The notes under the pieces were generated by a model that worked only from the letters and a program-made list of their open reading frames with translations, ran no database searches and was not told the DNA's origin. The position numbers and the translations under genes are program-made. Below are positions 6,521 through 32,003 of a DNA stretch of 32,003 nucleotides, piece after piece. Each line of letters begins with the position of its first letter. Positions within the stretch are counted from its first letter, which is position 1. Source of the stretch: Melioribacteraceae bacterium (GTDB lineage: Bacteria > Bacteroidota > Ignavibacteria > Ignavibacteriales > Melioribacteraceae); assembly GCA_021647785.1 (NCBI GenBank), contig JAKIUC010000055.1, positions 1 through 32,003 of the forward strand, read 5' to 3'.

Positions 6521-6522
6521 TC

Positions 6523-6780: not shown

Positions 6781-6788
6781 ATTATCTC

Positions 6789-7169: not shown

Positions 7170-7170
7170 A

Positions 7171-9532: not shown

Positions 9533-9535
9533 AAT

Positions 9536-13264: not shown

Positions 13265-13298
13265 TTTATTAACCTTTTATACTTTTTAGCTTTCTCTT

Positions 13299-13868: not shown

Positions 13869-13916
13869 TTGTATATCCTTTCCGCCTTTTGCGAAATTGT
13901 TGCATTGTTTCATAAT

Positions 13917-14564: not shown

Positions 14565-14568
14565 TTTT

Positions 14569-15366
14569 TTATCTCTTAAGATTATTAGCCATTGTCATCA
14601 TCTCCTCAACCGTCTTCACAGTTTTGGAATTAATTTCGTAAGCTCTTTGTGCACTAATCATTGCAATCATCTCTTCAACAATATCCACGTTTGATGATTC
14701 TAAATACCCTTGGTGTATCTCACCAAATCCATTTTCTCCTCCAGTTCCAAAAATTGGAATACCAGAAGACTCAGTCTCCTCATAGAGATTATCACCAAGT
14801 GCTTTTAATCCGCCAGGGTTCATAAATCTAATTAATTCTATATCTCCCATTGAAAAAGACTTACCATCGGCTTCGGTAAGTTCTACTAGCCCATCTCTGC
14901 TTATACTTATAGATATTGTATCTTCCGAAAGTGATATTTCCGGTTCTAATGCATACCCCATCGAGGTTACTAATTGTCCATTAGCATTTACTTTAAAAGA
15001 GCCATCACGGGTATAAAGAAATGTTCCGTCCGATTTCCTAATCTGGAAAAAGCCCTCACCATTTATTGCTAAATCAAACTGGTTATATGTGGGCTGTATA
15101 TCACCCTGCTTAAATATCTTTTGAGTTGAAACTGGCTGCACACCATTTCCAATTTGAATTCTACTTTCATTTGTTTGCCCTTGAGGATTGGAAGAAGATG
15201 AAATAGTATTTGTTGGAACTTCCTGATACATTAAATCAGAAAATTCTGCTTTATTCTTTTTGAAAGCAGTTGTGTTCATATTTGCAATATTGTTTGAAAT
15301 AACTTCAATATTGTATTGCTGGGCAAACATCCCAGAAGCTGCTGTTCTTAATGATCTTGTTGACAT
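14569..15366 (-). CDS. flgG: Flagellar distal rod protein FlgG
   Basis: 265 residues, typical for FlgG (260-262). The N-terminal motif SLRTAASGMFAQQYNIEVIS and NNIANMNTTAFKKNKAEF, the specific FSDLMYQEV, then GNGVQPVSTQKIFKQGD (about 73-89) and DLAINGEGFF are strong family marks. It ends with ESSNVDIVEEMIAMISAQRA and YEINSKTVKTVEEMM, the C-terminal coiled coil. FlgG builds the distal rod that crosses the periplasm. The gene follows flgF by 12 nt. Confidence 0.97.
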   Translation of the reverse strand: MSTRSLRTAASGMFAQQYNIEVISNNIANMNTTAFKKNKAEFSDLMYQEVPTNTISSSSNPQGQTNESRIQIGNGVQPVSTQKIFKQGDIQPTYNQFDLAINGEGFFQIRKSDGTFLYTRDGSFKVNANGQLVTSMGYALEPEISLSEDTISISISRDGLVELTEADGKSFSMGDIELIRFMNPGGLKALGDNLYEETESSGIPIFGTGGENGFGEIHQGYLESSNVDIVEEMIAMISAQRAYEINSKTVKTVEEMMTMANNLKR

Positions 15367-15378
15367 AAATTCCTCCCC

Positions 15379-16086
15379 TTAAAAAACCTTTCCAATTTGA
15401 TTTGCTTTTTCTAACGATTCGTCGAGATACGACAGAATATTTTTGGCTGACTCATAATTTTTGGATAACGAAATCATACTTTCCATCTCTTCAATAGGGC
15501 TTACATTAGAGCTTTCCAAAAACCCTTGAGAAACTTCAAATTCACCATCGTTTACTTGAACAAAATCCTCATCACTTTTAAAATAAACTTCATAATCTTT
15601 AATTAGTTGTGTATCCTCTGCTCCTCTCATTATCATTAACTTATCAACTATTTTTTCCCCAACCTTTATCACCCCATCAGCAGAAATAGTAATTCTATTA
15701 TCTTCATTATTCATTACATCTTTAAGATTAATCAACCCGCCCTCACCAATAACTTTATCGCCTTTTCTATTAGTCAAAAATCCTTCCTGCGAAATTGAGA
15801 ACTTTCCATCGCGGGTTAATCTTTCACCACTCTCAGTTTCAACAGTAAAATAGGCATCTCCTTTTAACGCCAAGTCTAACGGATTACTTGTAAACAGATG
15901 TTCGCCAGCAGCAAAATCAGTTACTTGTTTGGTAACCATATTACCTTGCTCCATAAGTATTTGATAAAACGGCAAAGTTTTCTTATATCCGGAAGTCCCC
16001 ATATTTGCTAAGTTATTTGCAATAACTCCTATCTGTTTCTCTCCAACTTGCAGATTTTGTCCTGCTTGGAATATTCCTTTTATCAT
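15379..16086 (-). CDS. flgF: Flagellar rod protein FlgF
   Basis: 235 residues, a little shorter than usual. It belongs to the rod/hook family: VIANNLANMGTSGYKK (about 21-36), the LDLALKGDAYFTVET stretch and the C-terminal ESSNVSPIEEMESMISLSKN. Compared with FlgG it lacks the full AASGM motif and has a divergent start MIKGIFQAGQNLQVGEKQIG, which together with its place before flgG suggests FlgF of the proximal/distal rod. It overlaps the stop of the preceding gene by 4 nt (ATGA). FlgF is the best fit, but another FlgG-like rod protein is possible. Confidence 0.87.
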   Translation of the reverse strand: MIKGIFQAGQNLQVGEKQIGVIANNLANMGTSGYKKTLPFYQILMEQGNMVTKQVTDFAAGEHLFTSNPLDLALKGDAYFTVETESGERLTRDGKFSISQEGFLTNRKGDKVIGEGGLINLKDVMNNEDNRITISADGVIKVGEKIVDKLMIMRGAEDTQLIKDYEVYFKSDEDFVQVNDGEFEVSQGFLESSNVSPIEEMESMISLSKNYESAKNILSYLDESLEKANQIGKVF

Positions 16087-16613
16087 GCTTGGTTCCTCGC
16101 TATGTTTGTTTCTGAACCGTAACTTTTAATATTATTAACTAAAAGGATTTCACCTTTTGCAATTTTTAATTTACGTGCTAAGGCAGTAATATTTTGTTCT
16201 CCAAAACAATTCTCAATTTTTTCCAGTAGCCCCATTCGTACTGGTGTTAATGAGTGATCTATTGGTTTACGTAAATTCTCTTCTCTCAGTAAACGAATAT
16301 TTTCTTTGAATTGTTTCGATATTATTTTTTGCTGAATTTTTACTCTTCGCAAGAATACAAGAGATAGTACAATGGTTGCACTTAACATTAAAATTAAAAT
16401 ATTAAAAACTCCTGACGAAATATTTGGGAATGCTGCAATTCGTGAGTTTTTTTCTACTGATTCTTTTGTTATCATTTGGCTGCCGCCTTGGGCTTCAAGC
16501 ATTTGAGCCTTAACAATTGCACGTACATCAACATTGCTTGAGTTTTGAGCTACAGCTGCAATGTTAATTAAGAAGATTGTTAGAATTAATATTTGTAAAA
16601 ATCTTTTTATCAT
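16083..16613 (-). CDS. Membrane protein with SwrB/DUF6115-like C-terminus
   Basis: 176 residues. There is a signal peptide or first helix (about 4-22), a short outside segment of some 45 residues, a second hydrophobic helix (about 68-88), then a charged, helical cytoplasmic part (about 90-130), and a C-terminal motif ALARKLKIAKGEILLVNNI (about 144-162). From memory this ending resembles the L-x-k/g-G-E-I/V-x-L-x-L motif of DUF6115 proteins, which I associate with SwrB of Bacillus, an activator of flagellar export at FliP encoded just after sigD. Here too the gene follows the fliA group. The gene is certain from its 4-nt overlaps on both sides; the SwrB comparison is inference. Confidence 0.7.
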   Translation of the reverse strand: MIKRFLQILILTIFLINIAAVAQNSSNVDVRAIVKAQMLEAQGGSQMITKESVEKNSRIAAFPNISSGVFNILILMLSATIVLSLVFLRRVKIQQKIISKQFKENIRLLREENLRKPIDHSLTPVRMGLLEKIENCFGEQNITALARKLKIAKGEILLVNNIKSYGSETNIARNQA

Positions 16614-17908
16614 TTTTGCAATTTCCTTTTAAGTGGGAACTGTAGTGAAAAGGATGTTCCGCTTTCTTCGCTACTATTGTAAAAAACTTTCCCTTCATGT
16701 TTTCTCATTAAATTATTCATAATTGAAAGTGAAAGTTCAAACGAATCTCTTTTTTTACTATTCATGTTTCCAAAATTATCTGTTGTAAATACATTTATTA
16801 AAACCAAACCACTCTGAAAGCGAGTCTGTATCAAAATTCCGCCAGTTTCTGAATATCCATTTTTTATTAAGCTAAATAGATTTGAAAATATTTGATTCAG
16901 CAAATTTGAATTACTAAGTATTGGAGGAATGTTCTCTCCCAAATCAAGAATACACTCATAATTGTTATTCTTAATTGATGACATTAAAACGTCCACATAT
17001 TCCGAGACTTCATCATTTAAGTTGCAAGGGGTTGTAACTGTTGCATCATTATTAACACTTGCAAATTTGGATAAACGGTTCATTACAGTTTCAATCTTTT
17101 TTACTTGGTTATTAATGGTTTGTAATACATCTTTATCAACATTTGAATGTTCGTTTTTAATAAAATCGGAGCAACTCATTATAACTTGAGTTGGCTTCAT
17201 TATATCTTCAACTATTCCATTTGTTAATTCACCAACCGCAGCAAGTTTTGAATCGTTAGATAATTTACTTTTGTAAGTAAGAGATTCTTTTATAGCTTCA
17301 TTTATTTTTTCTTGATTAATAATCATCGAAACTTTTGGATAAATTAAACCTGTTAATAAATGAACTGCCTTCATTTCAAACGAATCATCTTTTAATTCAC
17401 TTAATGGAGTCTGCACAACCAAAATGCCTTTTTTCTGGTTTCGTTCAATTATCGGAATTATTAGATAATTTAGATTTGGAGCATGTTTTTCATTTCTACT
17501 TAAGTTAGGAAGTATTACAGCTTTCTTTTTTTCAAAAACCCAACTAATTATTCCATTTTTTAATGATGTTTCAACTGTATGCCTAATTCTTCTATCGCAT
17601 CTTTCTGTTACAGGAAGTAGTTCGTATTCATTATCATTAAAAAGAAAAAGATGAGCTTCTTCAACCGTAAAAAGTGTACGAAGATTTTTTACAAAAAGAT
17701 TAATTATTAATTGTACATCATTCAAGTTTCTTATTTGAGTATTTACATTGCTAATGGTAGTAAAAAATGACTCGAACCTATTTTTGTTACCCATTGCAGA
17801 AGTATTAATAAAACGTAACGCAGTTTCATTAGTTTTGCTTAATGACTCTTCTTCTAATGTTTTATAGAGTGTGTCATACATATGGGCGCTATTTTTAATT
17901 ACTTTCAT
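16610..17908 (-). CDS. GAF-domain sensor kinase homologue lacking catalytic residues
   Basis: 432 residues. Residues about 45-195 are a GAF sensor domain (EEAHLFLFNDNEYELLPV). Residues 215-285 match a HisKA helix pair, LAAVGELTNGIVEDIMKPTQ, but in the alignment GIAHEINNP the His is E234. The HATPase-like end (about 325-425) keeps the N-box start (NLFSLIKNG) and D377, but the G1 box reads TTDNFGNM and the G2 box GxGLGL is replaced by FELSLSI. The protein is therefore probably a pseudokinase: a scaffold or a GAF-controlled regulator of a partner. It sits 12 nt after an HDOD gene and overlaps the SwrB-like gene by 4 nt, inside the fliA-flgF block. Confidence 0.85.
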   Translation of the reverse strand: MKVIKNSAHMYDTLYKTLEEESLSKTNETALRFINTSAMGNKNRFESFFTTISNVNTQIRNLNDVQLIINLFVKNLRTLFTVEEAHLFLFNDNEYELLPVTERCDRRIRHTVETSLKNGIISWVFEKKKAVILPNLSRNEKHAPNLNYLIIPIIERNQKKGILVVQTPLSELKDDSFEMKAVHLLTGLIYPKVSMIINQEKINEAIKESLTYKSKLSNDSKLAAVGELTNGIVEDIMKPTQVIMSCSDFIKNEHSNVDKDVLQTINNQVKKIETVMNRLSKFASVNNDATVTTPCNLNDEVSEYVDVLMSSIKNNNYECILDLGENIPPILSNSNLLNQIFSNLFSLIKNGYSETGGILIQTRFQSGLVLINVFTTDNFGNMNSKKRDSFELSLSIMNNLMRKHEGKVFYNSSEESGTSFSLQFPLKRKLQK

Positions 17909-17920
17909 CTGTTAGATATT

Positions 17921-18787
17921 TTATATTAAACTTCTAATTGATTCAATCTGTTCTTTAATAAATTCGTTATAAGATTCTATGAATTCTTCCAAACTCTCTT
18001 TGCTTGAAAATCCTAATGTCTCTATAATAGATTCATCTAAAACCAAGTCTGTTTCCCAATCTACCATCCCAATTTTCTGAACAGTAGTTATATAATCTGC
18101 TAAGTGTATAACAGAAGTTAATGCTTTATCCATATTTGCCACAGATGGTGTATGATGGAATTTAACTGCATCAACAATTATTTTTGGAAGTCCCCAATTT
18201 TCCAAAACTAACTCAGCAACTTCGGCATGAGTTAAAGTTAAAATCTCTTTTTCAGCAATAGTATGATTAATTCCAGTAGATGCTAATTCATATATTTCGT
18301 CAAATTCTGACTTAAAATCTCTGTGAATTATTGAAATAGCAAAATCGTGCAAAAACCCTACTACAAAAGCTTCGCCACAATTTGTAATATCTAAATCCAT
18401 TGCAATTTTACGAGATAAATTTGCAGTAATAAATGAGTGTAGCCAAAAATCATCAGGATTAAAATATTTACTCCGTTCCATTTTGAATGACTGCATAAAC
18501 GCAATTGCAAAAACAACTTTTTTAATCTCTTTTAACCCAAGAACAAAAACAGCAAAACTCATAGTAGAGACTTCTCGTCTTAAACCATAAATTGGAGAGT
18601 TAGCGATGGTTAAAATTTTGGATATAAAACTTTGATCTTTCGAAATAATTTTAACCAAATCTGATTTGCTGCTATTTGGATCATTCAATATTCGCAATGC
18701 TTCATCTGCAATTTGCGGTAAAGCAGGTAGAGTGTTAATCTTCTCTAAAATTTTTTCTATGTTCTCTTGATTTTTCACTAACATCAT
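17921..18787 (-). CDS. HDOD-domain regulatory protein (second copy)
   Basis: 288 residues consisting of one HDOD domain (about 12-215). Marks are LPALPQIADEALRILND, SDLVKIISKDQSFISKIL, ANSPIYGL and AVFVLGLKEIKK, then GFLHDFAISI and the VKFHHTP region. HDOD proteins are HD-like folds that usually lack the metal-dependent phosphodiesterase activity and act as signalling scaffolds. It is clearly paralogous to the neighbour at 18799-19665, 11 nt upstream, and precedes the pseudokinase by 12 nt. Two HDOD proteins, a pseudokinase and FliA next to each other suggest a module that tunes flagellar gene expression or assembly; that role is inferred. Confidence 0.9.
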   Translation of the reverse strand: MMLVKNQENIEKILEKINTLPALPQIADEALRILNDPNSSKSDLVKIISKDQSFISKILTIANSPIYGLRREVSTMSFAVFVLGLKEIKKVVFAIAFMQSFKMERSKYFNPDDFWLHSFITANLSRKIAMDLDITNCGEAFVVGFLHDFAISIIHRDFKSEFDEIYELASTGINHTIAEKEILTLTHAEVAELVLENWGLPKIIVDAVKFHHTPSVANMDKALTSVIHLADYITTVQKIGMVDWETDLVLDESIIETLGFSSKESLEEFIESYNEFIKEQIESIRSLI

Positions 18788-18798
18788 AATAATAACTC

Positions 18799-19665
18799 CT
18801 AAAATGGAAGAGATTCCAACTGGTTTTGAAGATGTTCTTTATAGCTTTCTATAAAACTATCAACATATTCTTTACTGCCAAGCCCAAGAATCTCAATTGC
18901 CTTTTCATCTATTTCTAATCCGGAATCCCATCTGAACGCACCGCATTCCAAAACATTTGTTGTATAATCGGCTAAATGGATTATAGTTGATAATAGAATA
19001 TTATCACTATTTTCTGATGGGTTGTGGTGGAAATAAATTGCCTCACCAAGATTTGCAGGAAGGTGCCATTTATCGCAAAGTATTTTGCCAATTTCCTGAT
19101 GTGTTAAATCCATAACTTCTTGTTCAGCAAATTTGTAACTAACCGATTTGTTTGTAACTAAATCACAGATTTTAATAAAATCTTTGTTGAAATATTTCTG
19201 AGTTACAACAATACCTAAATCATGCAATAAGCCAGCAGTAAATGCCTCACTTGTTTTTTGATATCCCAAATCATCTGCAATTGCTTTTGCAGCCATAGCT
19301 GTCATAAACGAATGTTCCCAAAATTCCCTTCTGTCCCAATATTCCGAATCCTCATTTTTAAATGTATCGAACATTGAAAGAGCAATAACTATTTGGCGAA
19401 CTTGGTCGAAACCAAGTACAAGAACTGCAAAATCGATACTCGGTACTTTTCTTGGTAATCCATATAGGGGTGAGTTTGCAACTGTTAAAATTCTTGCTAC
19501 AAGAGCTTGGTCTTTATTAATTAAACTACTAATATCTGTAGTGCTAGTCATAGGATCATCCAAAAGGTCTAAAACATGCTTTGTAATTGAAGGAATAGAG
19601 GGTAGGTTTCTAATACTAAGCAAATAATTTTTTCTACGACTATCTTTAATTTCAATTTCGTTCAT
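18799..19665 (-). CDS. HDOD-domain regulatory protein (first copy)
   Basis: 288 residues with one HDOD domain: LPSIPSITKHVLDLLDD, SSLINKDQALVARILTVANS (about 50-69), PLYGLPRK, AVLVLGFDQVRQI, the AGLLHDLGIVV segment and IYFHHNPSE. It aligns with the second HDOD protein over its whole length, so the two arose by tandem duplication. The frame is open to a TTG at 19677 inside fliA, but the ATG at 19665, one base after the fliA stop, is the more likely start and would be translationally coupled. The exact output is unknown; its place directly after fliA argues for a role in motility. Confidence 0.9.
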   Translation of the reverse strand: MNEIEIKDSRRKNYLLSIRNLPSIPSITKHVLDLLDDPMTSTTDISSLINKDQALVARILTVANSPLYGLPRKVPSIDFAVLVLGFDQVRQIVIALSMFDTFKNEDSEYWDRREFWEHSFMTAMAAKAIADDLGYQKTSEAFTAGLLHDLGIVVTQKYFNKDFIKICDLVTNKSVSYKFAEQEVMDLTHQEIGKILCDKWHLPANLGEAIYFHHNPSENSDNILLSTIIHLADYTTNVLECGAFRWDSGLEIDEKAIEILGLGSKEYVDSFIESYKEHLQNQLESLPF

Positions 19666-19666
19666 T

Positions 19667-20296
19667 TTAAACGCCAACTTCTTGTAACTTCCCTTTTAGG
19701 GAATCTAAAATTCGTGAGTGAATCTGTGATATTCGCGAGACTGTAATATCTAAAACTTCTGATATTTCTCGATAGTTTAGGTGCTCAAAGTAATAAAGAG
19801 TAATTATCAATCTATCCCTTTCAGATAAATCCTTAATACATTCCATCAATCTCTCTTTAGCTTCATTTTTTTCAGCTGTTTCTTCAGGAAGCTCAACATC
19901 TGATGGAATTACTTCGTGCAGTGTTCCGCTATCATCATTTCCAGAAGTTCTATCCAAAGATACATTTAGAAAATAAGGTTCACCAGGTTCATCAAATGGT
20001 GAAAATCTTGGTTTAATTTGAGCTTTCCTAAGCTCATCTATTATTTTTCCTCTAATTCTCTGTATGGCATAAGTTTCAAATTTTGTTCCAAACTCTGGGT
20101 CAAAGCGTTCAACTGCTTCGCTTAAACCTTCAATTCCAAACTGGAAATAATCTCTACTATCAAAGATGTTGAGATTAACAAATTTGGAATGGTGAATTAC
20201 ATAGTGGACTAAATTTGTGTAACACAATAACAATTGCTTCTTAAGTACCTCTGTAGGAGCTTGTTTGTATTGTGTCCAAAGTGTTGTGGTCTCCAT
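19667..20296 (-). CDS. fliA: Flagellar sigma factor FliA (sigma-28 family) lacking region 3
   Basis: 209 residues against about 239 in Escherichia coli. Region 2 is intact (LVHYVIHHSKF, YFQFGIEGLSEAVERFDP, FETYAIQRIRGKIIDELR, about 29-90). Region 4 is intact with the helix-turn-helix LNYREISEVLDITVSRISQI (about 173-192). Between them region 3, normally some 60 residues starting DWVPRSVR, is absent; RKAQIKPRFSP runs straight into NVSLDRTSGNDDSG and an acidic linker. It should direct RNA polymerase to late flagellar promoters. The ATG has GGGAAG upstream and lies 4 nt after the small membrane protein gene. Confidence 0.9.
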   Translation of the reverse strand: METTTLWTQYKQAPTEVLKKQLLLCYTNLVHYVIHHSKFVNLNIFDSRDYFQFGIEGLSEAVERFDPEFGTKFETYAIQRIRGKIIDELRKAQIKPRFSPFDEPGEPYFLNVSLDRTSGNDDSGTLHEVIPSDVELPEETAEKNEAKERLMECIKDLSERDRLIITLYYFEHLNYREISEVLDITVSRISQIHSRILDSLKGKLQEVGV

Positions 20297-21158: not shown

Positions 21159-21262
21159 TTTTACCCACCCCTAAATCCCCTCCCAGTAGGGGACTTTTTG
21201 CACCATTCCGCAAAGCGGAATGAATCTTTCCCCTCTTAAGAGGGGATTAAGGGGTGTGTCCT
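21159..21262. repeat. C-rich palindromic repeat, copy 1
   Basis: CACCCCTAAATCCCCTCC near 21167-21184 pairs with GAGGGGATTAAGGGGTG near 21240-21256. Inside are the hairpin CATTCCGC-AAA-GCGGAATG (21204-21222) and the perfect 16-nt palindrome CCCCTCTTAAGAGGGG (21230-21245). Its GC-rich arms stand out in this AT-rich DNA. Similar C-rich palindromes are scattered in Bacteroidetes/Chlorobi-group genomes, as far as I recall; a second copy lies at 21531-21561. Confidence 0.7.
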
Positions 21263-21445
21263 GTTTTCATTTATGCAACACCCATATTTCTAAATTATCT
21301 AGCTTTTTGACCCAAAATAAAAGTATTTCACAAAAGTCAAATTAATTCGCTTTTTAGGCTATTATCAATGCTTTCTCAAATAGTGCAGCAAACAGGTAAA
21401 TATTTTTGTGAATTAAGAGAGCAGTAAGATTTATCTTGGTGTATA

Positions 21446-21504
21446 AACCAGTAAACTGGTTACAATTTCTTTATTCTTTTATTTCCCACTGATGAATCTG
21501 TGGG
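21446..21504. repeat. Two short hairpins
   Basis: AACCAGT-AA-ACTGGTT (21446-21461) is a perfect inverted repeat, followed by CCCAC (about 21485-21489) and GTGGG (about 21500-21504) around a 10-nt loop. Function unknown; they add to the high palindrome density of this spacer. Confidence 0.4.
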
Positions 21505-21530
21505 TTAATGAGAATGATTGTTTTTATCCG

Positions 21531-21561
21531 CCCCTAAATCCCCTCCTCGGAGGGGATTTAG
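21531..21561. repeat. C-rich palindromic repeat, copy 2
   Basis: CTAAATCCCCTCC (21534-21546) and GGAGGGGATTTAG (21549-21561) form a perfect 13-bp stem around a 2-nt loop. The left half repeats the left arm of copy 1 at 21159-21262 (CCCCTAAATCCCCTCC), so the family is present at least twice in 400 bp. Confidence 0.75.
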
Positions 21562-21871: not shown

Positions 21872-21907
21872 AAAAAAAAACCACAGCATAAAATGTCTGT
21901 GGTTTTT
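21872..21907 (-). terminator. Intrinsic terminator of the 775-residue surface protein gene
   Basis: On the minus strand AAAAACCACAG (21907-21897) pairs with CTGTGGTTTTT (21886-21876) around a 10-nt loop and runs into nine T. It begins 31 nt after the stop codon at 21938. Confidence 0.9.
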
Positions 21908-21937
21908 ATCAAATATCTGATATTTATTGCTTCTAAA

Positions 21938-24265
21938 TTATTTTATCAGCAGCATCTTTTTTGTGTTTATAAAATTTAAACCATTACTATTTGTAGCTAT
22001 AATTCTGTATAAATAAACACCACCGGCTAATTTTGAAGCATCAAAAGAAATTTCATGAAAGCCAGCACTTATTTCTGAATTCAAAAGAGTTACAATTTCT
22101 TGTCCTGTAATATCAAAAATAGTTAAATTTACCATTGCACTTTCGGGTAAGCTATAATTAATTATTGTAGATGGATTGAACGGATTTGGATAATTTTGAC
22201 TGAGTGAAAACTCTTTTGGTATTGCAGGCGATAAATCGTCAATATCTGTTAAAATTGAAACCTCTGCAGTATCAAATACTGTTTCTACTTGATCTGTTAA
22301 GGAAACAATAATTGTTGCGTTAATATCTTCATTAGTTGCTGGTGTCCAAGCAAATGCTCCATCACTACTTATTGTTGCTCCAGTTGGTGCAGAGTGTATA
22401 ACAAACGTTAAGGGATCATCATTTGGATCTTCTCCAGCATATTGAAAACTTAAAAGATTCCCTTCTGTTATTGTTGTATCTGGCATTGTCTTTGTAAAAT
22501 ATGGAGCTTCATTTGCAGAGATTACTGTAATACTTGTAGTATCATAAACCATTATTTGTCCATCACTAAGTCCTGCAATAACTAAATCATATATTCCAGC
22601 TTGCCCTCTCGTTGGAGTCCAGCTAAAATTTCCAATTGAATCTATTTCAACGCCTACAGGACCAGAATCTAATGAAAAAGTTAAAGGGTCATCATCAGGG
22701 TCAACTCCTGTATATAAATAATCGAGTGTTTCCAACTCTACTATTGTGGTATCTGGTAATGTATTAGTGAAATATGGGTTTCTGTTACTTTCTGTTACAG
22801 TTATTTGAGTTGTGTCATAAACAGTATCCATACCATCGGTTAAGCTAACTATTACTTCATATTCTCCTGCTTCATCATAAGTTGGAGTCCAGGCAAAATC
22901 ACCACCTGCATCCAAAATTGCTCCACCAGGTCCTGAAACAAGTGCAAATGTTAACGAGTCATTATCCGGATCATTTCCTGTGTATAAATAAGTTAAATAC
23001 TCATTTTCAGCAATTGTTGTATCGGGTAATGTATTTACAAATGAAGGTGGTTGATTAGGTAATTCAGTTACACTGCCATCATAAAATAAAACCGCAACTT
23101 GTGCAAATGATGTTGTTCGAACATCGGCAGTAGCCTTATTAAAAGTTAAATCTGAATTCCCTCCAGTATAACTAAATTCTATATCTGCAATTAAAATATC
23201 ACTGGCGGTTACACCTGCTGCATTAATGTATCCTAATTTTAGAACTCCGCTTACAACATTTGAAGTAAAAGTTCCTCCAATAGTATAATCATGTACTGCA
23301 ACAAATGTTAATGATGTTTCATCAAAATCTATATCCAAATTAAAAGAGCCAACATCTGTAAGATTTCTTGCACTAAATGGTATATTAATATTCTGATTTG
23401 CTCTTTCCACTACATCACTAAGATACATTTCAGAATCACTTATAGTTATACTTCCATCAGTATATTCAACACTAATAGGATTCAAATCTTTATCACCAAC
23501 TTGACTACTGGGTTGAAATGCTAATGAAGTATTTCCAGTTAGTAATTCAAATTCTAAATCAGCCATAGCTCCAAAAACATGATTAAACCCTAAACTATTG
23601 AACATGCCGAGACTTACAATTCCATTTGCCGCATTGGAAATAAAACCTGGTAAGTTTAGAGTACCAATTCCAATAAATTTAGCAACTGTAGTATCATAAG
23701 CTATATATAAATTCATTGAACCGATATCAACTAAATCTAAACCTGATAGTTCAACAGAGACCGTATCTCCAGGAACTCCATTTACATCATTTAATTCAAT
23801 TTTAACAGGTGCTACTACACCTTCTGAAATACTGCCATTTATGAAAGGTACATTATAAACCTGATAGGGATTACTTCTAGAAAATTCAACAAAATCAAAT
23901 TCAATAGAGGTGGATCCACCAAAATAGTTAAATTTTAAATCAAATATTTTACCATTAGCTAAATCAATTGGGGGACTACCAAACCAGGATACTATTACTA
24001 AAGTATCTCCATTAGAGTTTGCTTGAAAAAACCCACTAGTAATACTGTTATTTTCAACAACTCCTGTATATGACATCACAGCTGGGTCAAATCTAATTTC
24101 TAATGTTATAGCCCCAACTGTATTAAGCGTGGTAATATTTACTGGTACAAGTACTTCGGTACCACCCACTTCAATCAAATCAGGAATGGATATAGTTGCA
24201 TCCTGTGCAAAGAAATTTGCAAAAGAAAAGATTAACAATACGCTAACTAAAAGTACTTTTTTCAT
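21938..24265 (-). CDS. Secreted triple-cohesin protein with Ig-like repeats and T9SS sorting domain
   Basis: 775 residues. A Sec signal peptide (1-21, ending FFAQD) is followed by three cohesin-like modules (about 22-147, 153-275 and 278-402). They are recognised by the D-x-V/N-x-V-P-V-N opening strand, the VGAITLEIRFDPAVMSYTGV-type strand pair and the GG-x-S/T-x-L/I-x-F closing strands. Three cadherin/Ig-like repeats follow (about 404-492, 494-589, 590-683), each opening FVNTLPDTTI-like and carrying DPDNDSLTF-type acidic loops. The end (about 687-775) is a T9SS type A sorting domain: SQNYPNPFNPSTIINYSLP to GVYLYRI and the basic KKMLLIK. It should be moved across the outer membrane and kept on or released from the surface. 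GAGGTATT precedes the ATG. The natural partner would be a dockerin; see 28663-32003. Confidence 0.88.
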   Translation of the reverse strand: MKKVLLVSVLLIFSFANFFAQDATISIPDLIEVGGTEVLVPVNITTLNTVGAITLEIRFDPAVMSYTGVVENNSITSGFFQANSNGDTLVIVSWFGSPPIDLANGKIFDLKFNYFGGSTSIEFDFVEFSRSNPYQVYNVPFINGSISEGVVAPVKIELNDVNGVPGDTVSVELSGLDLVDIGSMNLYIAYDTTVAKFIGIGTLNLPGFISNAANGIVSLGMFNSLGFNHVFGAMADLEFELLTGNTSLAFQPSSQVGDKDLNPISVEYTDGSITISDSEMYLSDVVERANQNINIPFSARNLTDVGSFNLDIDFDETSLTFVAVHDYTIGGTFTSNVVSGVLKLGYINAAGVTASDILIADIEFSYTGGNSDLTFNKATADVRTTSFAQVAVLFYDGSVTELPNQPPSFVNTLPDTTIAENEYLTYLYTGNDPDNDSLTFALVSGPGGAILDAGGDFAWTPTYDEAGEYEVIVSLTDGMDTVYDTTQITVTESNRNPYFTNTLPDTTIVELETLDYLYTGVDPDDDPLTFSLDSGPVGVEIDSIGNFSWTPTRGQAGIYDLVIAGLSDGQIMVYDTTSITVISANEAPYFTKTMPDTTITEGNLLSFQYAGEDPNDDPLTFVIHSAPTGATISSDGAFAWTPATNEDINATIIVSLTDQVETVFDTAEVSILTDIDDLSPAIPKEFSLSQNYPNPFNPSTIINYSLPESAMVNLTIFDITGQEIVTLLNSEISAGFHEISFDASKLAGGVYLYRIIATNSNGLNFINTKKMLLIK

Positions 24266-24730
24266 TTTAATACCTCATACTTATTATATAATTATTTTAA
24301 ACAATCCTTAGTCTCATTTAGCTCTTAAAGCACCTCATATGTAGTGCCAAGTTTAAATTATATCTTAATTACATTAAGTTTCATTACTAAGTTCTAATGT
24401 TTTGTACACAGGACACTTTTACAACATTTACAAAAGCCCAACTTTTGTTTTGTTAGATAGCTCTTCGTCCCTCAAATTTTTGTGCATTCACAAAACACTA
24501 TGCAATGAAAAAGTTGGGCTTTTCCATTATAATTGTTGTTCTAATTACACCAAAGGTATCCCTCTGGGAGAACTTAACTGTATTTACTAAAAAACCATTC
24601 AAAGACTATTAACAAAGTCTGTAAGTAATAAGTAAATACCAGTAAAATATCATTCAAATAATGCTATTACACAATATTATAGATACAATGTAAAACTATT
24701 TTTTAAATAAAAGAATTAGTTTAAATATAC
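24266..24730. other. Intergenic region, no gene seen
   Basis: The leader and upstream spacer of the 775-residue gene, very AT-rich. A short open frame on the plus strand (24402-24590) has no ribosome site and lies over the inverted repeat at 24432-24523, so I do not call it. Apart from that repeat I see no structure and no convincing promoter. Confidence 0.5.
24432..24523. repeat. 15-bp inverted repeat with attC-like ends
   Basis: AAAAGCCCAACTTTT (24432-24446) and AAAAGTTGGGCTTTT (24509-24523) are perfect inverted copies 62 nt apart, with an inner hairpin TTTTGTG-CATT-CACAAAA (24477-24494). The inner parts GCCCAAC (24436-24442) and GTTGGGC (24513-24519) fit the integron attC R'' (RYYYAAC) and R' (GTTRRRY) boxes, 84 nt overall, but no clear L boxes and no integrase are seen. 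It is about 170 nt upstream of the 775-residue gene and could equally be a leader structure. Confidence 0.5.
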
Positions 24731-24760
24731 AAAAAGAGCCACATAAATGTGGCTCTTTTT
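24731..24760 (-). terminator. Intrinsic terminator of the 1263-residue surface protein gene
   Basis: AAAAAGAGCCACA (24731-24743) and TGTGGCTCTTTTT (24748-24760) form a perfect 13-bp stem with a TTTA loop on the minus strand, closed by a T run. It starts 24 nt after the stop codon at 24784. The stem is A/T-flanked on both sides, so it could also work on the plus strand. Confidence 0.92.
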
Positions 24761-24783
24761 AGGGGTAAAAATTGAGGTGTGAT

Positions 24784-27700
24784 TTACTTCACAAGCATCA
24801 TTTTCTTAACAATTTGGAAGTTTTTGCTTCCATCAATTGATTCAGCTTGAATACTATAGAAATAAACACCACTTGATAGGTTTGCAGCATTAAATTGGAC
24901 TTCATGATAACCTGCGGTTAAATCAGAATCGACCAATTTAGTAACTAACTGACCTAATGTGTTATATACATTTATTTTTACGCTACTTTGTAATGGTAAT
25001 GCATATTGAATAATTGTTGAAGGATTAAAAGGATTTGGATAGTTCTGAGATATTTCATAATTCACAGGAATTTCCAAACCAACTTTAACATCAACAACCC
25101 TATCTGTGAAATCAGCGAGTTTACCAAGAACAAATGCATTATTAGCGTTGTCACGGATACCTTGTAAATCATCACCAGCAACAATTGCAAATGTTTTAAT
25201 TACAGTTCCACCGTCAGATATTGTTCCAACATTTGTACCAATCCACAATCTTTGGTCACCAACACCAGGTTCATCATTTTCATCAAATGTAGTGATGAAT
25301 CCATATCCAGCTTGTCTAAGGGAAGCTACATCAGCTTCATTAGAAGGAGCAACTTTTGCACCATCCATATTATCAATAGCTACAACACCAAAGTATGGTC
25401 CATTTGTACCATCAGCATAAACATATGCTAATTCTTCAGCTTTAGAATATCCGCCAGTATTAGTTGTATAAGGATCAGCATCATAATCCATAAAGATACC
25501 AGCACTGAAACCTTCAATGTCGGAACCTGTATTATTACTAAAAGCATATTCAATGTAAACAACTTCATCGCCTGTTTTAGAATATGTTTTTTGAGTAATA
25601 TCTAATCCATAAGGATTAGCAGCTAAACCGTCAGTGAAAATAGCATCCGATACTTGATCAAAATCAACAGTACCTTGTGTTTCTGCATAAAATCCTGATG
25701 TAAAATCTGAATCAATATTTGTTAAATCAAAGAAGTTTGCAGGATTATTATTGTTTGCTTGTCCATTAACTGAACCTCTTGCAGAAGTACCAAATACAGG
25801 ACCGCCTCTCCAAAGACCATTAGCACCTTTCCAAACAACACCAACACCATAATTAATGCCGTCAAATTTATTTGCTCCTATTGTACCATTATTGAATACA
25901 GAAACACTTAAATCTCCTGGAGTATGATCTAATGTCATTATACCTTCTTCCCAGAAAAATACATCACTAGAATCACGAGGTAGTATTTTGTAATTACTAA
26001 ATGAGTAATCACCAACACCAGTAACAGTTACAATAGCACCACTATCAGGAGTTGATTTATAGAAAACATCATCAGTTCTTACAGAACCTGTAGAATCGGT
26101 TAATTCCCATTCTCCATATCCTAAATCAGCATCAGTAACCATAGCTTGTTCTATTCTAACTAATACACCTTCATAAGGTTCACCGAACTCAGATGCTGTA
26201 ATAACAACAGGAGCAGGTAATGTATTACCAGAACTATTGACATTAAATTCATAAATATCAACTAATTCGGTTTTGCCCCAATACTCTTTTACAAAAGCAG
26301 TAACTGTAACTTCATCACCAACAGTAGGAGCATTATCTCTATCATAAACAAAAACACCATTCCATGCACCAGTAGAATCTTGCAAGAAATATGTATTAGT
26401 TTTAGCAGCAGTAACAATACCAGTAGTTTTAATAGCTAAACCATTGTATTTAGAATCACCACCACCTTCTTGTATCTCTTTAATAGAAACAACTTTTTGT
26501 TCAGGAACAGAAGTAGCTCTTACTTCGAAATTATCAAACATAACTTCGCCATAGCCACCATTGTATTTATAAATTCCTGGATATCCAATTGCTAAAAATG
26601 GATCTGAATCAGTATATGGTCCACCAGGAAGAAGTTGTCCATCCATAAAGGCTTCAAATTCGCCTTCGTGAACTCGTACTTTAAAGTTATGGAAACCTGT
26701 TTCGAGTGCAGGAAAATCTACACCTGGATCCCATCTTTTAAGCGTATGCCAAACACCATTATAGCCTTGCATTCTTAACTGACCATTATTAGAAGAAGAT
26801 GAATTTCTATAAACGAATCTATAAAATTCAAATTCACTACCAGCCATTCTAATAGCTAATCCAGTATATAATGAAGCAGTTGCATCAGCAGGTCCTACAA
26901 TATAAATATCAGCTTGTACAGTATAATTACTTAAAGCTAATGATTGAGGATGTATCATTCCAGTATATGCAGAGTCGCCAAAAACAACTACATGGCTACC
27001 CCATGCACTACCAGTTGAGTCAACTACATTAATAGTTCCAGCAGCAGATAAATAATTATACAACCAATCATTATCTAAACTTCCATCAGTTGCGTACTCG
27101 TTTATTTCATAAACAAAAACAGTACCATCAGTAACAGTAACAACAGCTGTATCATATACCATTGTTGTACCGTCACTTAAACCAGCGATAACATCATAAA
27201 TACCAGATTGACCATTTACTGGAGTAAAGCTAAACTGACCAGCAGAATCGATTGAAGCACCAGTTGGTCCAGATACAAGTGAAAAAGTTATAGCTGCATT
27301 ACCTGAGTGAGTTCCAGTATAAAGGAAATCAAGAGTATTAGTAGCTTCAACTGTTGTATCAGGTAAAGTATTAACAAAAGATGGAATCATTAATTCAACA
27401 ATTGAACCATCTTCAAATACAAGAGCTACAGGGTTAAAATCAGTATCTTGAACATCTGCAGAAGCAGCATCAAAAGTAATAGCAGAGCTACCGCCAGAAT
27501 AGTTAAAAACTATATCAGCAATATCTCCGTCAACTAAATCTAAACCAGAAGCATTAAAATAACCTAATGATAATGTTCCACCAACTTCATTTCCAACAAG
27601 TGAACCACTAATTACATTATCAAATCTGACAAATTCTAAAACAGAATCGTCATACATTACATCGATATTGAATGAACCAATATTAGTAAGTTTCAATGCA

Positions 27701-28575
27701 GATAAAGGTACACTAACTTCTGTACCTGCAACTGCAGAAACATCACCTAAAAGCATTGATTCTAAAATAATAAGCTCACCAACAGAACCACCAGTTAGTA
27801 GAGCAGGTATGTTATTAAAACTAACATCTTGTACAAAACTTGATGCATCAAATTCCAAATCAGTATTTCCAGCAATAACAACAAATTTTAATGTTGCTAA
27901 AACACCAGAGCTATGATCAAAACCATTTGCATCAAACATACCAAGATTAACTCTATTAGCCACACCATTAGCTGTAAAGTCAGCTAAATTTATGTTACCC
28001 ATTCCAACAAAAGTTGCTTTCGAATCATCATAATTAATGTAGAGATTCATAGCACCTATGTTTTCAAGGTTAACAGCCGTCATTTCAACTTCAACTGTAT
28101 CTCCGGGTAAACCAGTTTCATCACTTAAGTCAATTGATATTGGTTCTGCCCCAACTGAACCATCATTGAATACTGAATTAATAGGGTTAGAGAGAGCATC
28201 AGCAAGTTGATTAGTTCCCACGAAACTAACAGCACTTGTTCCACCATTGTAAACAAACTTTAAGTCCAATATCTTTGCAGCAATATCAACAGGAGTTGTG
28301 TTAAACCAAGCAATACTAATAGTATTACCTTGCGGATTAACAACAAAAGAGCCTCCGATTAGATTGTTATTTGCTACTTCAACAAATGTTAAAACAGATG
28401 TATCATATTCAACATTTAGATTAACACTTCCTAAATCGTTAACGGTAGCATTGATAGGAACCAATACTTCATCACCAGTAGGAGAAGTAACATTAGGTAT
28501 TGAAACTTCAGTTTGACCCAATAGCGAATAAGTGAGCAATACGAGAAAACTTAATATTGGGATAATTTTATTCAT
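24784..28575 (-). CDS. Secreted triple-cohesin protein with LamG-like, OB-fold and T9SS domains
   Basis: 1263 residues. The signal peptide (1-21, ending LLGQ) is followed by three cohesin-like modules (about 22-142, 145-265, 272-390) and one Ig-like repeat (about 393-482). Next come a concanavalin/LamG-like jelly-roll module (about 485-690; FYRFVYRN, GFHNFKVRVHEGEFEAFMDG), an OB-fold of the YhcR/nucleic-acid-binding type (about 692-870; YNGLAIKTTGIVTAA, VFVYDRDNAPTVGDEVTV, EPYEGVLVRIE) and a large unassigned module (about 880-1165; FMDYDADPY, LRQAGYGFITTFDE). A T9SS sorting domain closes it (about 1172-1263, SQNYPNPFNPSTIIQY). The first half is a clear paralogue of the 775-residue protein, module for module. 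A carbohydrate-binding or adhesive role is plausible; no catalytic site was found. AGAGG precedes the ATG. Confidence 0.87.
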   Translation of the reverse strand: MNKIIPILSFLVLLTYSLLGQTEVSIPNVTSPTGDEVLVPINATVNDLGSVNLNVEYDTSVLTFVEVANNNLIGGSFVVNPQGNTISIAWFNTTPVDIAAKILDLKFVYNGGTSAVSFVGTNQLADALSNPINSVFNDGSVGAEPISIDLSDETGLPGDTVEVEMTAVNLENIGAMNLYINYDDSKATFVGMGNINLADFTANGVANRVNLGMFDANGFDHSSGVLATLKFVVIAGNTDLEFDASSFVQDVSFNNIPALLTGGSVGELIILESMLLGDVSAVAGTEVSVPLSALKLTNIGSFNIDVMYDDSVLEFVRFDNVISGSLVGNEVGGTLSLGYFNASGLDLVDGDIADIVFNYSGGSSAITFDAASADVQDTDFNPVALVFEDGSIVELMIPSFVNTLPDTTVEATNTLDFLYTGTHSGNAAITFSLVSGPTGASIDSAGQFSFTPVNGQSGIYDVIAGLSDGTTMVYDTAVVTVTDGTVFVYEINEYATDGSLDNDWLYNYLSAAGTINVVDSTGSAWGSHVVVFGDSAYTGMIHPQSLALSNYTVQADIYIVGPADATASLYTGLAIRMAGSEFEFYRFVYRNSSSSNNGQLRMQGYNGVWHTLKRWDPGVDFPALETGFHNFKVRVHEGEFEAFMDGQLLPGGPYTDSDPFLAIGYPGIYKYNGGYGEVMFDNFEVRATSVPEQKVVSIKEIQEGGGDSKYNGLAIKTTGIVTAAKTNTYFLQDSTGAWNGVFVYDRDNAPTVGDEVTVTAFVKEYWGKTELVDIYEFNVNSSGNTLPAPVVITASEFGEPYEGVLVRIEQAMVTDADLGYGEWELTDSTGSVRTDDVFYKSTPDSGAIVTVTGVGDYSFSNYKILPRDSSDVFFWEEGIMTLDHTPGDLSVSVFNNGTIGANKFDGINYGVGVVWKGANGLWRGGPVFGTSARGSVNGQANNNNPANFFDLTNIDSDFTSGFYAETQGTVDFDQVSDAIFTDGLAANPYGLDITQKTYSKTGDEVVYIEYAFSNNTGSDIEGFSAGIFMDYDADPYTTNTGGYSKAEELAYVYADGTNGPYFGVVAIDNMDGAKVAPSNEADVASLRQAGYGFITTFDENDEPGVGDQRLWIGTNVGTISDGGTVIKTFAIVAGDDLQGIRDNANNAFVLGKLADFTDRVVDVKVGLEIPVNYEISQNYPNPFNPSTIIQYALPLQSSVKINVYNTLGQLVTKLVDSDLTAGYHEVQFNAANLSSGVYFYSIQAESIDGSKNFQIVKKMMLVK

Positions 28576-28614
28576 TGATAATACCTCTTAATTAAAAAAT
28601 GGTCTTTGTTAATT

Positions 28615-28643
28615 AAAAGAAGACCTACGATGTAGGTCTTCTT
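28615..28643 (-). terminator. Intrinsic terminator of the dockerin-cohesin gene
   Basis: AAGAAGACCTAC (28617-28628) and GTAGGTCTTCTT (28632-28643) form a perfect 12-bp stem with a 3-nt loop on the minus strand, followed by TTAATTAAC. It separates the gene ending at 28663 from the gene starting at 28575, so the latter needs its own promoter in an 87-nt gap. Confidence 0.85.
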
Positions 28644-28662
28644 GAAATAACATCTAATTAAA

Positions 28663-31600
28663 TTACTTCATTAGAATCATTTTCTTAGTCATTACGAAGT
28701 TTTTGCTACCTTCAACAGTAACTCTGTAAAGGTAAACACCACTTGCCAAGTTAGAAGCGTTGAAGTTAACTTCGTAAGCTCCAGCAACTTGTTTAGTATT
28801 AACAAGTGTTCCAACTCTTTGACCTAATGAATTGTAAACAGTTAAAGTAACTTTACCATTTTCTGGTAAATCATACTGAATAGTAGTAGATGGGTTGAAT
28901 GGGTTAGGATAGTTTTGTCTTAATGCAAAAACATCAGGAATACCAATAGCAACTACAGGTATCTTGATTCCAGCATTAATGTTTTTAGCCATTCTATCAG
29001 TCATTTCAGCACCATCTAATAATTCAAGGCTAACTTCATCAGCTTTGCCAAATTTATCAGTAGCTTTGAATTTAAGTGTTGCTAACGCATCACCATCTTT
29101 AACGTTTATATCTTTAGAACCTAAGTTAACCCATGCAATTGAAATTACATCTTCAACAACATTAGCTACTAAAGTACCACCGTTTTCAGTAGAAATTCCA
29201 AGGAACTCTACTTTTTCGAGGTCATATTTTAGTTTGAATGTAAATGAACCAATTTCTGTTAATTCAGTTATAGAAATAGGTAATTCAAATTCAGATTCTT
29301 TTTTAATATTTAATACTTCGTCGCTGTTAACAGCAATGTTAGAGACTTTCGCTAATCCTAATGCAGGACTATAATCGCTTCTAGCATCACCAGCAGCAAT
29401 TCCCATAAGATTTTGTGTTATGTCTTGTGTTCCAGCAGTAACTGCAGCAGTTTCAAATTGCCAGTCATCTATTTGGAAATCATCAATACCAACAGATCTG
29501 TTAAGAATTGCAAGAGCATCTGAAGAAGTGATGTTTCCAACACCTACAACATCTGCAGCAACTTTTTGTAAATCACTATTTAAGAAATTACTATCAGGGT
29601 TAACAACATATAGTTGTGTTTCAAGAGCGTCAGACGCTAAAGCACCACCCCATTGGGTCGTTTTCGCAGCAGTAATTGTATATTCACCAGACGTAACATC
29701 TGTAAATGAATAAGCACCAGTTGCGTCAGTTACATCTGTCCATTGGTTAACACCATCAGAAAGTGTAACAGTAACAGCATCTAATAGTTCTGCACTAACG
29801 TTGTAAGATACAACACCATTTATATCAACTGTAGTAACTTGAACTACAACAATTGCAGTAGTAGTATCCCACGCTTGGTTATCTGTAACAAACATGCGAA
29901 GAATATAAACTGCTGTATCTGTAACAACAGGAGTCCATCCAATTGTTGCACTTGTATCATCTTGTGAAACGATAGATAAAGTTTGTGGATTAGGAGTAGC
30001 AAGTGAGAATGTTAATGCATCCATATCCAAATCTTCAGCAACATATTTAAATGTTAATTGGTCGCCAACAAATATTGTTGTATCAGGTAACACAACAGTA
30101 AATACTGGAGGAGAATTAACATCATTTACAACAACAGTTACAGAATCATCTGCACTTAAATCACCATCAGATACATTAGCAACTAATACATAAGTACCAG
30201 CTTGTGTAAATGAAGGAGTCCAAGTATAAACACCAGTAGCAGTCATTGCACCATGATCAGCAGAATCAACAACTACACCACCCATTAATAATGTGTGTGT
30301 AAATGTTAAAGGATCTCCATCTGGGTCAGATGCATTAGGACCAAAGTCTAATGTTAATAATGAATTTTCAGCAACAGTTGTATCTGGCATTGGAGTATCA
30401 ACAACTGGAGCTCTATTTACATCACCTACAGTGAATGTACTTAAAGTATCTGTAGTACCACCTTCACCATCAGTAACTCTAACAGTTAAATCAAATGTAT
30501 CTCCCATTTGACCAAATGAAGGAATCATTACTAATTCGCCAGTAACAGCATCAAGTGAGATACTATCAGGAGCAGTACCTACATTTGATAATATTACATA
30601 TCTTAATGAATCATTGTCAACATCATCATCAGCTGCAACATATGTAAAGTTGTATTCTTGACCTTCACCAATCTCTACAGAATCTGCAGGAGCAGCTGTA
30701 AAGTAAGGAAGTTGATTTGTATTTGTAACTGTTACTGTAAGTGTATCTATAGTAGATTGTGCATAAGTATCAGTAGCAGTAATAATAATTAAATGATCAC
30801 CTTCATCTGCGAATCCAGGTGTCCAAGTAACAGTTTGAGCTACATCATCCCATACAGCACCAGTAGGAACAACTGCTGTAACATCATCAGCATTATCACC
30901 AATATCAGGATCTGTTATTGTATAGTCAACAACTAATGTATCAACATCTTCTGCTATTGTAATAGCGTCAGCAACTATTGGAGTTGAAACACTGTTAACT
31001 TCAGCAACTTTATCAACCACTGGAGGTTTGTTTGATTGACTGTATGTAAATAATGCACCTTGTGATGTAATACCACCAGTAGCATCAATAACTTTTACTA
31101 AAGGATGATCTGCAGCTATTGTAGAGTTATCATAATTAGCTTCTAAACCTTGTAAAACCCAAGGATTAGCAGTATTACCATGACCTCTTCTAATCAATCT
31201 AACATTACCAATTCCGTCCAATACGTAATCTGAATAACCTTCAGCTTGGAATTCAACATCAAATTTGTATGATGGTGCTAAAGAGAGATCAGATAAAACT
31301 TTCCATGAGAAATCAGGATAGTTTGTAATTGTTTGGCTTGCTAATGTCATTGGTAAACCAGTTGTTCCACCAGGTGAAGCATCATCTGGATTAACCAATA
31401 AGTTAATAGAGGATTGAGGAGAAGTTTTGAAGTAGAATATTGCTGGTCTGTAATTACCAGAAGCATCACCAGTTGGATATTCAACTTTACTGATATCTAT
31501 TGTTGTTGTCTTATCAATAAATTTCTCAACATTTCCTGCAATAACACCACTTACTCTTGAATAACCTTGAGTTGGTTGATTTGATAAATTCAAGCTTTGC

Positions 31601-32003
31601 TTAAGAATAATTTTGCTTGTAGCATCTGTTTCAAAAACACCTTTAGTAAGCGTTAAATCAATAGGGGTTGTAGCAAAGTCTAAGTTAGCACCAACAAGTG
31701 TTACAACACTGTTGTCGTTTGTTTTATTTAATGTAATCTTAGAATTAGCATCAACTATTTGATTAGTTGACAACTTAAATTCTGCATTATTAGCACCACC
31801 AAGTACTACAGTACCTGCAGCAGTTGTGAACCATTCACCAGCTTTTTCTTCGAAATCGCCTAATAATGTTACTTGATTACCAACAGCTGACATAACAATA
31901 TTACCACCATTAAGAGTTAGTTTTCCATCAACTGTAATCTGGAAATTAAGAGTTAAGTTTCCTTTAACAGTAATGTTACCTGTAACATTAGGAGATTCTG
32001 TTG
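28663..32003 (-). CDS. Secreted dockerin/cohesin protein with cadherin-like repeats and T9SS domain, 5' end missing
   Basis: The frame stays open past the first Met at 31893 to the window edge (1112 residues visible), and the sequence upstream (GNITVKGNLTLNFQITV) continues the repetitive beta-helix style, so the real start is outside. Numbering from that Met: beta-solenoid-like part (to about 285), four cadherin/Ig-like repeats (about 290-690, each with an acidic DPD-type loop and WTP), a carboxypeptidase-regulatory-like module (about 690-765, DATGAYSFTDVTSGEYTI), a dockerin-like module (about 780-850), one cohesin-like module (about 855-985; IGSFTFKLKYDLEKVEFLGI) and the T9SS sorting domain (about 988-1076; RQNYPNPFNPSTTIQY). 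In the dockerin the first calcium loop reads DVVGVGNITSSD, keeping only the first and last acidic residues. The combination of dockerin and cohesin in one chain would allow self-assembly or capture by the neighbours. Confidence 0.87.
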   Translation of the reverse strand, partial: TESPNVTGNITVKGNLTLNFQITVDGKLTLNGGNIVMSAVGNQVTLLGDFEEKAGEWFTTAAGTVVLGGANNAEFKLSTNQIVDANSKITLNKTNDNSVVTLVGANLDFATTPIDLTLTKGVFETDATSKIILKQSLNLSNQPTQGYSRVSGVIAGNVEKFIDKTTTIDISKVEYPTGDASGNYRPAIFYFKTSPQSSINLLVNPDDASPGGTTGLPMTLASQTITNYPDFSWKVLSDLSLAPSYKFDVEFQAEGYSDYVLDGIGNVRLIRRGHGNTANPWVLQGLEANYDNSTIAADHPLVKVIDATGGITSQGALFTYSQSNKPPVVDKVAEVNSVSTPIVADAITIAEDVDTLVVDYTITDPDIGDNADDVTAVVPTGAVWDDVAQTVTWTPGFADEGDHLIIITATDTYAQSTIDTLTVTVTNTNQLPYFTAAPADSVEIGEGQEYNFTYVAADDDVDNDSLRYVILSNVGTAPDSISLDAVTGELVMIPSFGQMGDTFDLTVRVTDGEGGTTDTLSTFTVGDVNRAPVVDTPMPDTTVAENSLLTLDFGPNASDPDGDPLTFTHTLLMGGVVVDSADHGAMTATGVYTWTPSFTQAGTYVLVANVSDGDLSADDSVTVVVNDVNSPPVFTVVLPDTTIFVGDQLTFKYVAEDLDMDALTFSLATPNPQTLSIVSQDDTSATIGWTPVVTDTAVYILRMFVTDNQAWDTTTAIVVVQVTTVDINGVVSYNVSAELLDAVTVTLSDGVNQWTDVTDATGAYSFTDVTSGEYTITAAKTTQWGGALASDALETQLYVVNPDSNFLNSDLQKVAADVVGVGNITSSDALAILNRSVGIDDFQIDDWQFETAAVTAGTQDITQNLMGIAAGDARSDYSPALGLAKVSNIAVNSDEVLNIKKESEFELPISITELTEIGSFTFKLKYDLEKVEFLGISTENGGTLVANVVEDVISIAWVNLGSKDINVKDGDALATLKFKATDKFGKADEVSLELLDGAEMTDRMAKNINAGIKIPVVAIGIPDVFALRQNYPNPFNPSTTIQYDLPENGKVTLTVYNSLGQRVGTLVNTKQVAGAYEVNFNASNLASGVYLYRVTVEGSKNFVMTKKMILMK

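Follow-up and report, generated by a model that had tools for sequence, protein, structure and literature searches.

A putative cohesin-dockerin assembly of a bacterium's own surface proteins, with type IX secretion sorting tails, in a Melioribacteraceae genome

Are cohesin and dockerin modules, the socket and the plug of a docking pair, used to knit a bacterium's own surface proteins together, or do they gather enzymes? The question is raised by three adjacent minus-strand genes near the right end of contig JAKIUC010000055.1 of a Melioribacteraceae bacterium (assembly GCA_021647785.1). The whole stretch analysed, hereafter the window, is this one entire contig (32,003 nucleotides, positions 1 to 32,003), from a genome of 4.25 Mb in 99 contigs. 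The genes follow one another in the order P0003, 87 nt, P0002, 518 nt, P0001. P0003 (28663..32001; 1112+ aa, the 5' end being cut by the contig end) carries a dockerin-like module, a cohesin and a sorting tail of the type IX secretion system (T9SS). In both P0002 (24784..28575; 1263 aa) and P0001 (21938..24265; 775 aa), three cohesins stand at the N-terminus and a T9SS tail at the C-terminus, with further domains in the former and three Ig/cadherin-like repeats in the latter. The initial annotation offered two alternatives, a structural or adhesive surface assembly and a scaffold for dockerin-bearing enzymes encoded elsewhere. The former fits best, and the cohesin, dockerin-derived and T9SS features were confirmed. 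Here we tentatively propose that the bacterium exports these surface proteins by the T9SS and joins them, through cohesins and dockerins of their own, into a self-matched assembly that is not a cellulosome; we give this reading close to an even chance.

We searched the genome with the Pfam cohesin model PF00963 and obtained nine matches, all above the curated cut-off, seven in the window and two in one gene on contig C97. The same model found matches in two of 14 control genomes, and above the cut-off in one. The placement originally described, two triple-cohesin proteins and one with a single module, was borne out, with 7 of 7 window modules above the cut-off. They are P0002 cohesins 1 (28144..28512), 2 (27772..28140) and 3 (27391..27759), P0001 cohesins 1 (23819..24199), 2 (23438..23806) and 3 (23060..23428), and the P0003 cohesin (28942..29346), which lies directly 3' of the dockerin; these and all other features of the three genes lie on the minus strand. 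The whole-protein E-values of the two triple-cohesin proteins were 1.9e-15 and 1.6e-19, and the P0003 cohesin, unreported in the whole-protein scan, scored 32 bits when its own stretch was scanned (cut-off 24.1). The C-terminal tails of all three proteins passed TIGR04183, as expected for T9SS cargo: the type A sorting tail of P0003 lies at 28675..28911, and those of P0002 and P0001 at 24802..25041 and 21986..22192, respectively. Our search for T9SS machinery covered the translocon protein SprA and the sortase PorU. SprA_N was found in the genome (E 2.7e-53), and the PorU model was matched at 963.6 bits against a cut-off of 420. Sorting tails of T9SS type A number at least 150 in the genome (150 of 201 candidates scored), a very large cargo set.

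The dockerin-like module of P0003 (29368..29664) was recognised by a profile built from its own sequence and those of relatives. That profile, in which the window row was included, found the solved dockerins 4fl4, 2ccl and 1ohz (E 1.3e-9 to 1.2e-7), and profiles of the dockerin-cohesin unit found solved dockerins and cohesins alike. PF00404 gave no match in the genome even at E<=10, and the window copy is thus not a type I dockerin by Pfam; among relatives it matched 18 of 20 in one scan (E<=1) and 48 of 52 in a second (E<=0.01). The dockerin-like module initially described stands as a homologue of solved dockerins by profile, without a PF00404 match and with some calcium ligands lost. As judged from these profiles it is a dockerin derivative, divergent but real. 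With the module's own profile we found two dockerin copies in the genome at E<=10, the one in P0003 and one in a gene on contig C16, which is 78% identical to P0003 over the 167-aa stretch first searched and also carries a cohesin and a T9SS tail. Both sit directly ahead of the cohesin and the sorting tail. The genome tally is ten cohesins (nine by Pfam and the C16 one) and two dockerins. Since the only plugs found sit beside a socket, it is more likely that the bacterium's own surface proteins are knit together than that enzymes are gathered.

The module is built in an unusual order. We take the ligand positions of a type I dockerin calcium loop to be 1, 3, 5, 9 and 12. In a 52-row alignment of the dockerin-cohesin unit, every module holds one complete calcium loop (D1 in 52 rows, N/D3 in 51, D12 in 52), starts with loop positions 6-12, mostly G-G-V-N-x-T-D (D in 51), and ends with positions 1-5, mostly D-V-N-(G/A)-S (D in 52, N/D in 48, S/T in 47). 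The PF00404 matches of dockerin-ended proteins, obtained for 16 of 18 such proteins, start at profile position 8-11 of 57 in all 16. In these alignments the first calcium loop reads as split between the two ends of the module, like a circular permutation cut inside loop 1. In P0003, positions 6-12 of the first loop (GGALASD) are aligned to the N-terminal segment at 29629..29649 and positions 1-5 (DARSD; relatives mostly DVN(G/A)S) to the C-terminal segment at 29374..29388. The second loop, continuous and of 12 residues, is aligned to 29518..29553. The window copy has Val at ligand positions 3 and 5 of loop 2 and Arg at 3 and Leu at 9 of loop 1, and does not hold two intact loops; we call it dockerin-like or dockerin-derived because these ligands are replaced. 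Their loss suggests a contact less calcium-switched than in cellulosomes. An AlphaFold model of the unit placed three helices at residues 32-43, 53-59 and 69-78, and the structural matches listed for it span residues 130-263 only. A literature search on permuted or split calcium-loop dockerins, in which subscription journals were little covered, found no such dockerin in the text available.

The arrangement seen in P0003 recurs among relatives. Two short patterns from a four-row alignment yielded 66 related loci that were confirmed against an own-family relative, an uneven sample. In 51 of them the dockerin is followed by a cohesin and then by a C-terminal stretch (327-385 aa from match start to stop), and TIGR04183 at E<=0.001 matched 41 of these 51 tails; 13 others stop 111-157 aa past the match start, that is, they are dockerin-ended, and two are partial. 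A cohesin gene begins no more than 1.5 kb downstream of 21 of the 48 dockerin-cohesin loci and upstream of 6 of 31; for the dockerin-only loci the count is 1 of 12 (Fisher p 0.03 and 0.04; the loci are non-independent, and the downstream cohesin genes include other dockerin-cohesin genes). Within the family, nine copies scored above 89 bits (next 49 bits; the line was drawn after the scores were seen), namely those of the window, C16, G004, G009, G017, G018, G031, G082 and G083. Cohesin genes come after eight of these nine strong copies. In six (window, G004, G009, G017, G082 and G083) the very next gene has three tandem cohesins at its N-terminus, and G018 and G031 have first a one-cohesin gene and after it one with five or more spaced cohesin stretches. 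Three weaker copies (one in G030, two in G080) have no cohesin gene alongside within the available stretch, which in one case ends at a contig edge. At order level 33 of 133 genomes matched at 1e-8, and at phylum level 14 of the 296 genomes drawn matched at 1e-20. Two loci (L114 8203-11334 and L145 7166-9880) encode single proteins in which tandem cohesins, four and three respectively, are combined with a dockerin and one more cohesin; such proteins could chain head to tail.

Do the dockerin and the cohesin of P0003 touch? The AlphaFold model of the unit (263 aa, 52 rows) had a pLDDT of 92.5 and a pTM of 0.89, and the two modules are confidently predicted to pack as one unit. In 49 of 51 related loci, 2-5 profile residues separate them. 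Covariation was scored on 61 non-redundant rows, after 11 of 72 were dropped as outliers. The strongest inter-domain pair joined dockerin 79 and cohesin 164; it ranked 2 of 20,411 and was reached by none of 300 shuffles; F/Y/W is paired with S in 37 rows and V/T/I/S with T in 17. A patch of covarying positions, chosen post hoc, supplied 10 of the top 20 pairs with the outlier rows and 3 without them; we rely on the best pair alone. Aligned by eye with the C. thermocellum cohesin through a shared YD motif, positions 162 and 164 presumably correspond to Asn37 and Asp39 of that protein. In the text available from two studies, these two residues contact the Ser/Thr motif of the dockerin (PMC5772552; PMC4728124). 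The strongest inter-domain covariation would thus fall on the canonical binding face; it is not significant once relatedness is controlled, and we treat both this position and the covariation of P0003-type dockerins with their cohesins as suggestive only.

In the assembly that we propose, P0001, P0002 and P0003 would cross the outer membrane by the T9SS and stay at the surface. The P0003 dockerin would dock into a cohesin of its own kind, either within one chain (in cis), as a locked tail unit, or between P0003 copies (in trans). It may also engage the N-terminal cohesins of P0002 and of P0001, which in that case would gather P0003-type proteins into a layer, adhesive or structural. Several observations weigh against this proposal. 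By profile limits, dockerin and cohesin are 11 residues apart in the window and 6 apart in C16; both gaps exceed those of 49 of 51 relatives. When the own family was removed, the level of the 79-164 pair was reached by 4 of 200 shuffles; in three random three-quarter subsets it led once and 82-161 twice; and with the outlier rows kept, 51-162 led and 79-164 came second. A tree-aware covariation test gave 3-4 independent supported pairs and almost none opposed, with a median p of 0.5, not significant. The window dockerin is without ligands kept by nearly all of the 52 rows and may no longer dock, and the C16 paralogue has no adjoining cohesin gene. Finally, the N-terminal part of P0003, sought in the assembly with part of its G004 orthologue (an open frame of 2596 aa), was not recovered, the single match being 82 residues, 59% identical, on contig C67; the adhesive nature of P0003 is for that reason inferred from its Ig-like repeats. 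Because the linker in the window is longer than those of relatives and the leading covarying pair varies with the row set, we slightly lowered our confidence in the self-matched assembly.

Much of the same evidence can be read in another way, in which the dockerin-cohesin pair is a rigid structural spacer ahead of the sorting tail, with no intermolecular docking, and the cohesins of P0001 and P0002 form a stalk or bind something else. Such a spacer agrees with the short and nearly constant linker of the relatives, the confidently packed model, the degenerate calcium loops in the window and the C16 copy without a cohesin gene alongside. It is harder to reconcile with the same kind of dockerin standing alone at the C-terminus of enzymes in relatives, where it exists without a cis cohesin, and with the cohesin genes that follow eight of the nine strong family copies. 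We regard the spacer as a real, if minority, possibility.

We modelled two of the seven window cohesins by AlphaFold. For P0002 cohesin 3 (pLDDT 96.4), the 50 structural matches listed were all cohesin entries, the best with Z 17.9 and 1.5 A over 122 residues; for the P0003 cohesin the 50 matches listed were again all cohesin entries, with Z up to 14.2. A PDB search with single sequences was unproductive, P0002 alone returning nothing and P0003 alone four weak matches, no cohesin or dockerin among them, so that profiles were needed. A profile built from the seven window cohesins matched the solved cohesins 1g1k and 2vn5 at 2e-9. PF00963 at E<=0.01 found just 15 of the 52 unit rows; Pfam thus overlooks most of these cohesins. 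A further T9SS protein, encoded on contig C97 (L002 3772-8508), carries two cohesins amid other repeats, each 76% identical to P0002 cohesins 1 and 3, apparently through module exchange within the genome. Could the window modules keep the cohesin fold, have lost dockerin recognition and now have carbohydrate or some other surface ligand as their partner? With the solved cohesins listed, the modelled P0002 cohesin shares at most 25% identity, and the surface proteins bear Ig-like repeats, both in keeping with such a change. Against it stand the uniform cohesin matches, although a shared fold shows no function, and the recurrent linkage to dockerin-bearing genes. We consider this loss of recognition improbable.

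It was also suggested at first that no recognisable enzymes occur in the window, and our Pfam scan of P0001, P0002 and P0003 gave zero enzyme domains. An ExeM/NucH-like stretch in P0002 (26131..26424; model positions 2-116 of 546) matched partially, far under that model's cut-off. No dockerin-bearing enzyme was found in the genome with the module's own profile (E<=10) or with PF00404. Enzymes do bear this dockerin in relatives. We scanned 18 dockerin-ended proteins (10 of the 13 above and 8 from a separate search), and 11 had an enzyme-type domain: five polysaccharide deacetylases, two GH18, and one each of beta-lactamase-type hydrolase, M14 peptidase, CotH and DMFA2_C. These dockerin-ended enzymes are without a sorting tail and come mostly from outside the own family. 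Matches of dockerin-only-tail length, judged at order level by match range with 4 of 11 genomes read, occurred in 11 genomes of the order's two other families as against 0 of 15 own-family genomes matched at 1e-8; a weak own-family match (E 2.2e-6) is L075 of G016, a differently built protein that has a dockerin at its end and no sorting tail. In G056, which encodes dockerin-ended polysaccharide deacetylases, a 1093-aa protein with six tandem cohesins (G056:C23:311138-313471; L090 7144-10422) is encoded directly after a dockerin-cohesin gene; of the proteins we saw, it is the strongest candidate for a genuine enzyme scaffold linked to the T9SS. On the dockerin census we rejected an enzyme scaffold in the present genome, both copies lying in cohesin-bearing T9SS proteins. 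A cellulosome-like scaffold gathering enzymes encoded elsewhere in this genome, for which the dockerin-ended enzymes of relatives, the G056 gene pair and L075 would speak, is thus very improbable and, as one of the two initial alternatives, unsupported: at E<=10 the module's own profile found two dockerins, both in one chain with a cohesin and a sorting tail, PF00404 found none, and the family-level contrast just given also speaks against it.

Beyond these modules, P0003 carries Ig/cadherin-like repeats (Big_9, Cadherin_4 and He_PIG by Pfam; 29842..30744, limits approximate) and, 5' of the dockerin, a CarboxypepD_reg/SdrD_B-like stalk domain below the Pfam cut-offs (29662..29823). A terminator-like hairpin (24730..24761, minus strand) lies directly 3' of P0002, ahead of P0001. 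Just 3' of P0001, at 21878-21910, an inverted repeat with a flanking T-run on the minus strand is terminator-like by eye and was not called by the scan. A promoter scan gave 50 sites as compared to 58.8 in shuffles, that is, no excess, and a viral scan with P0003 as query gave no match. Several short G/C-rich inverted repeats (CCCCTCC...GGAGGGG types) occur at 21160-21560, in the long intergenic stretch between P0001 and a flagellar/motility cluster. This cluster (4191-20296) adjoins the surface genes, fills most of the remaining contig and encodes MotA, two MotB-like proteins, a flagellin-like protein, FlgK, a rod-binding/transglycosylase protein, FlgI, FlgH, FlgA and rod/hook proteins, together with HDOD proteins, a sigma-70-type factor and response regulators.

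A recurrent dockerin-cohesin-T9SS unit in Bacteroidota, where enzymes of some lineages bear the same dockerin, would be a defined route for T9SS bacteria to build multi-protein surface complexes. It would also offer a coupling pair that may depend less on calcium, as well as a natural experiment in how a calcium loop can be divided. A wider and rather doubtful extension would be that Bacteroidota have a cohesin-dockerin system of their own, with a circularly permuted, split-loop dockerin and a self-docking dockerin-cohesin-T9SS unit that serves as anchor or T9SS piggyback carrier for dockerin-ended enzymes in some lineages and as an enzyme-free adhesive network in the window's family.

T9SS-linked cohesin scaffolding is not wholly new. 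In Ca. Stygibacter (Cloacimonadota) a cellulosome-like, T9SS-linked scaffoldin was proposed from sequence in 2021, and in the text available the likeness lies in a tandem-cohesin scaffoldin-like protein with a C-terminal surface-attachment domain (a T9SS review is cited there) and in enzymes with C-terminal dockerins (PMC8542988). The dockerins there are on enzymes, whereas both dockerins found here share their protein with a cohesin and a sorting tail, and no dockerin enzyme was found. PF00404 dockerins are also reported, in the accessible text, from some Bacteroidota single cells (PMC10266427). Our literature search on cohesins and dockerins with T9SS, in Bacteroidota or outside cellulosomes, covered subscription journals little; it brought up Ca. 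Stygibacter as the one close precedent and, in the text available, no description of the dockerin-cohesin-T9SS unit.

The type I pairs of clostridial cellulosomes (1ohz, 2ccl, 1g1k, 2vn5) share the cohesin fold and the dockerin homology with the present proteins, in which, by contrast, no dockerin enzymes were found, T9SS tails are present and the first calcium loop is split by sequence. Clostridial cellulosomes use S-layer anchoring. The cohesin modules of the Clostridium perfringens GH84/GH33 enzymes (2jh2, 2w1n, 2vo8), which lie outside cellulosomes and have dockerin partners, gave structural Z of 10.9-14.9, and the dockerin-cohesin profile matched 2jh2 and 2w1n; there the modules are on glycosidases, whereas here they are on proteins with no recognised enzyme domain. 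The cohesin 2xdh of Archaeoglobus fulgidus, which we take to be non-cellulosomal, is among the closest folds (Z 17.7) as well as the closest sequence matches, and its host is archaeal.

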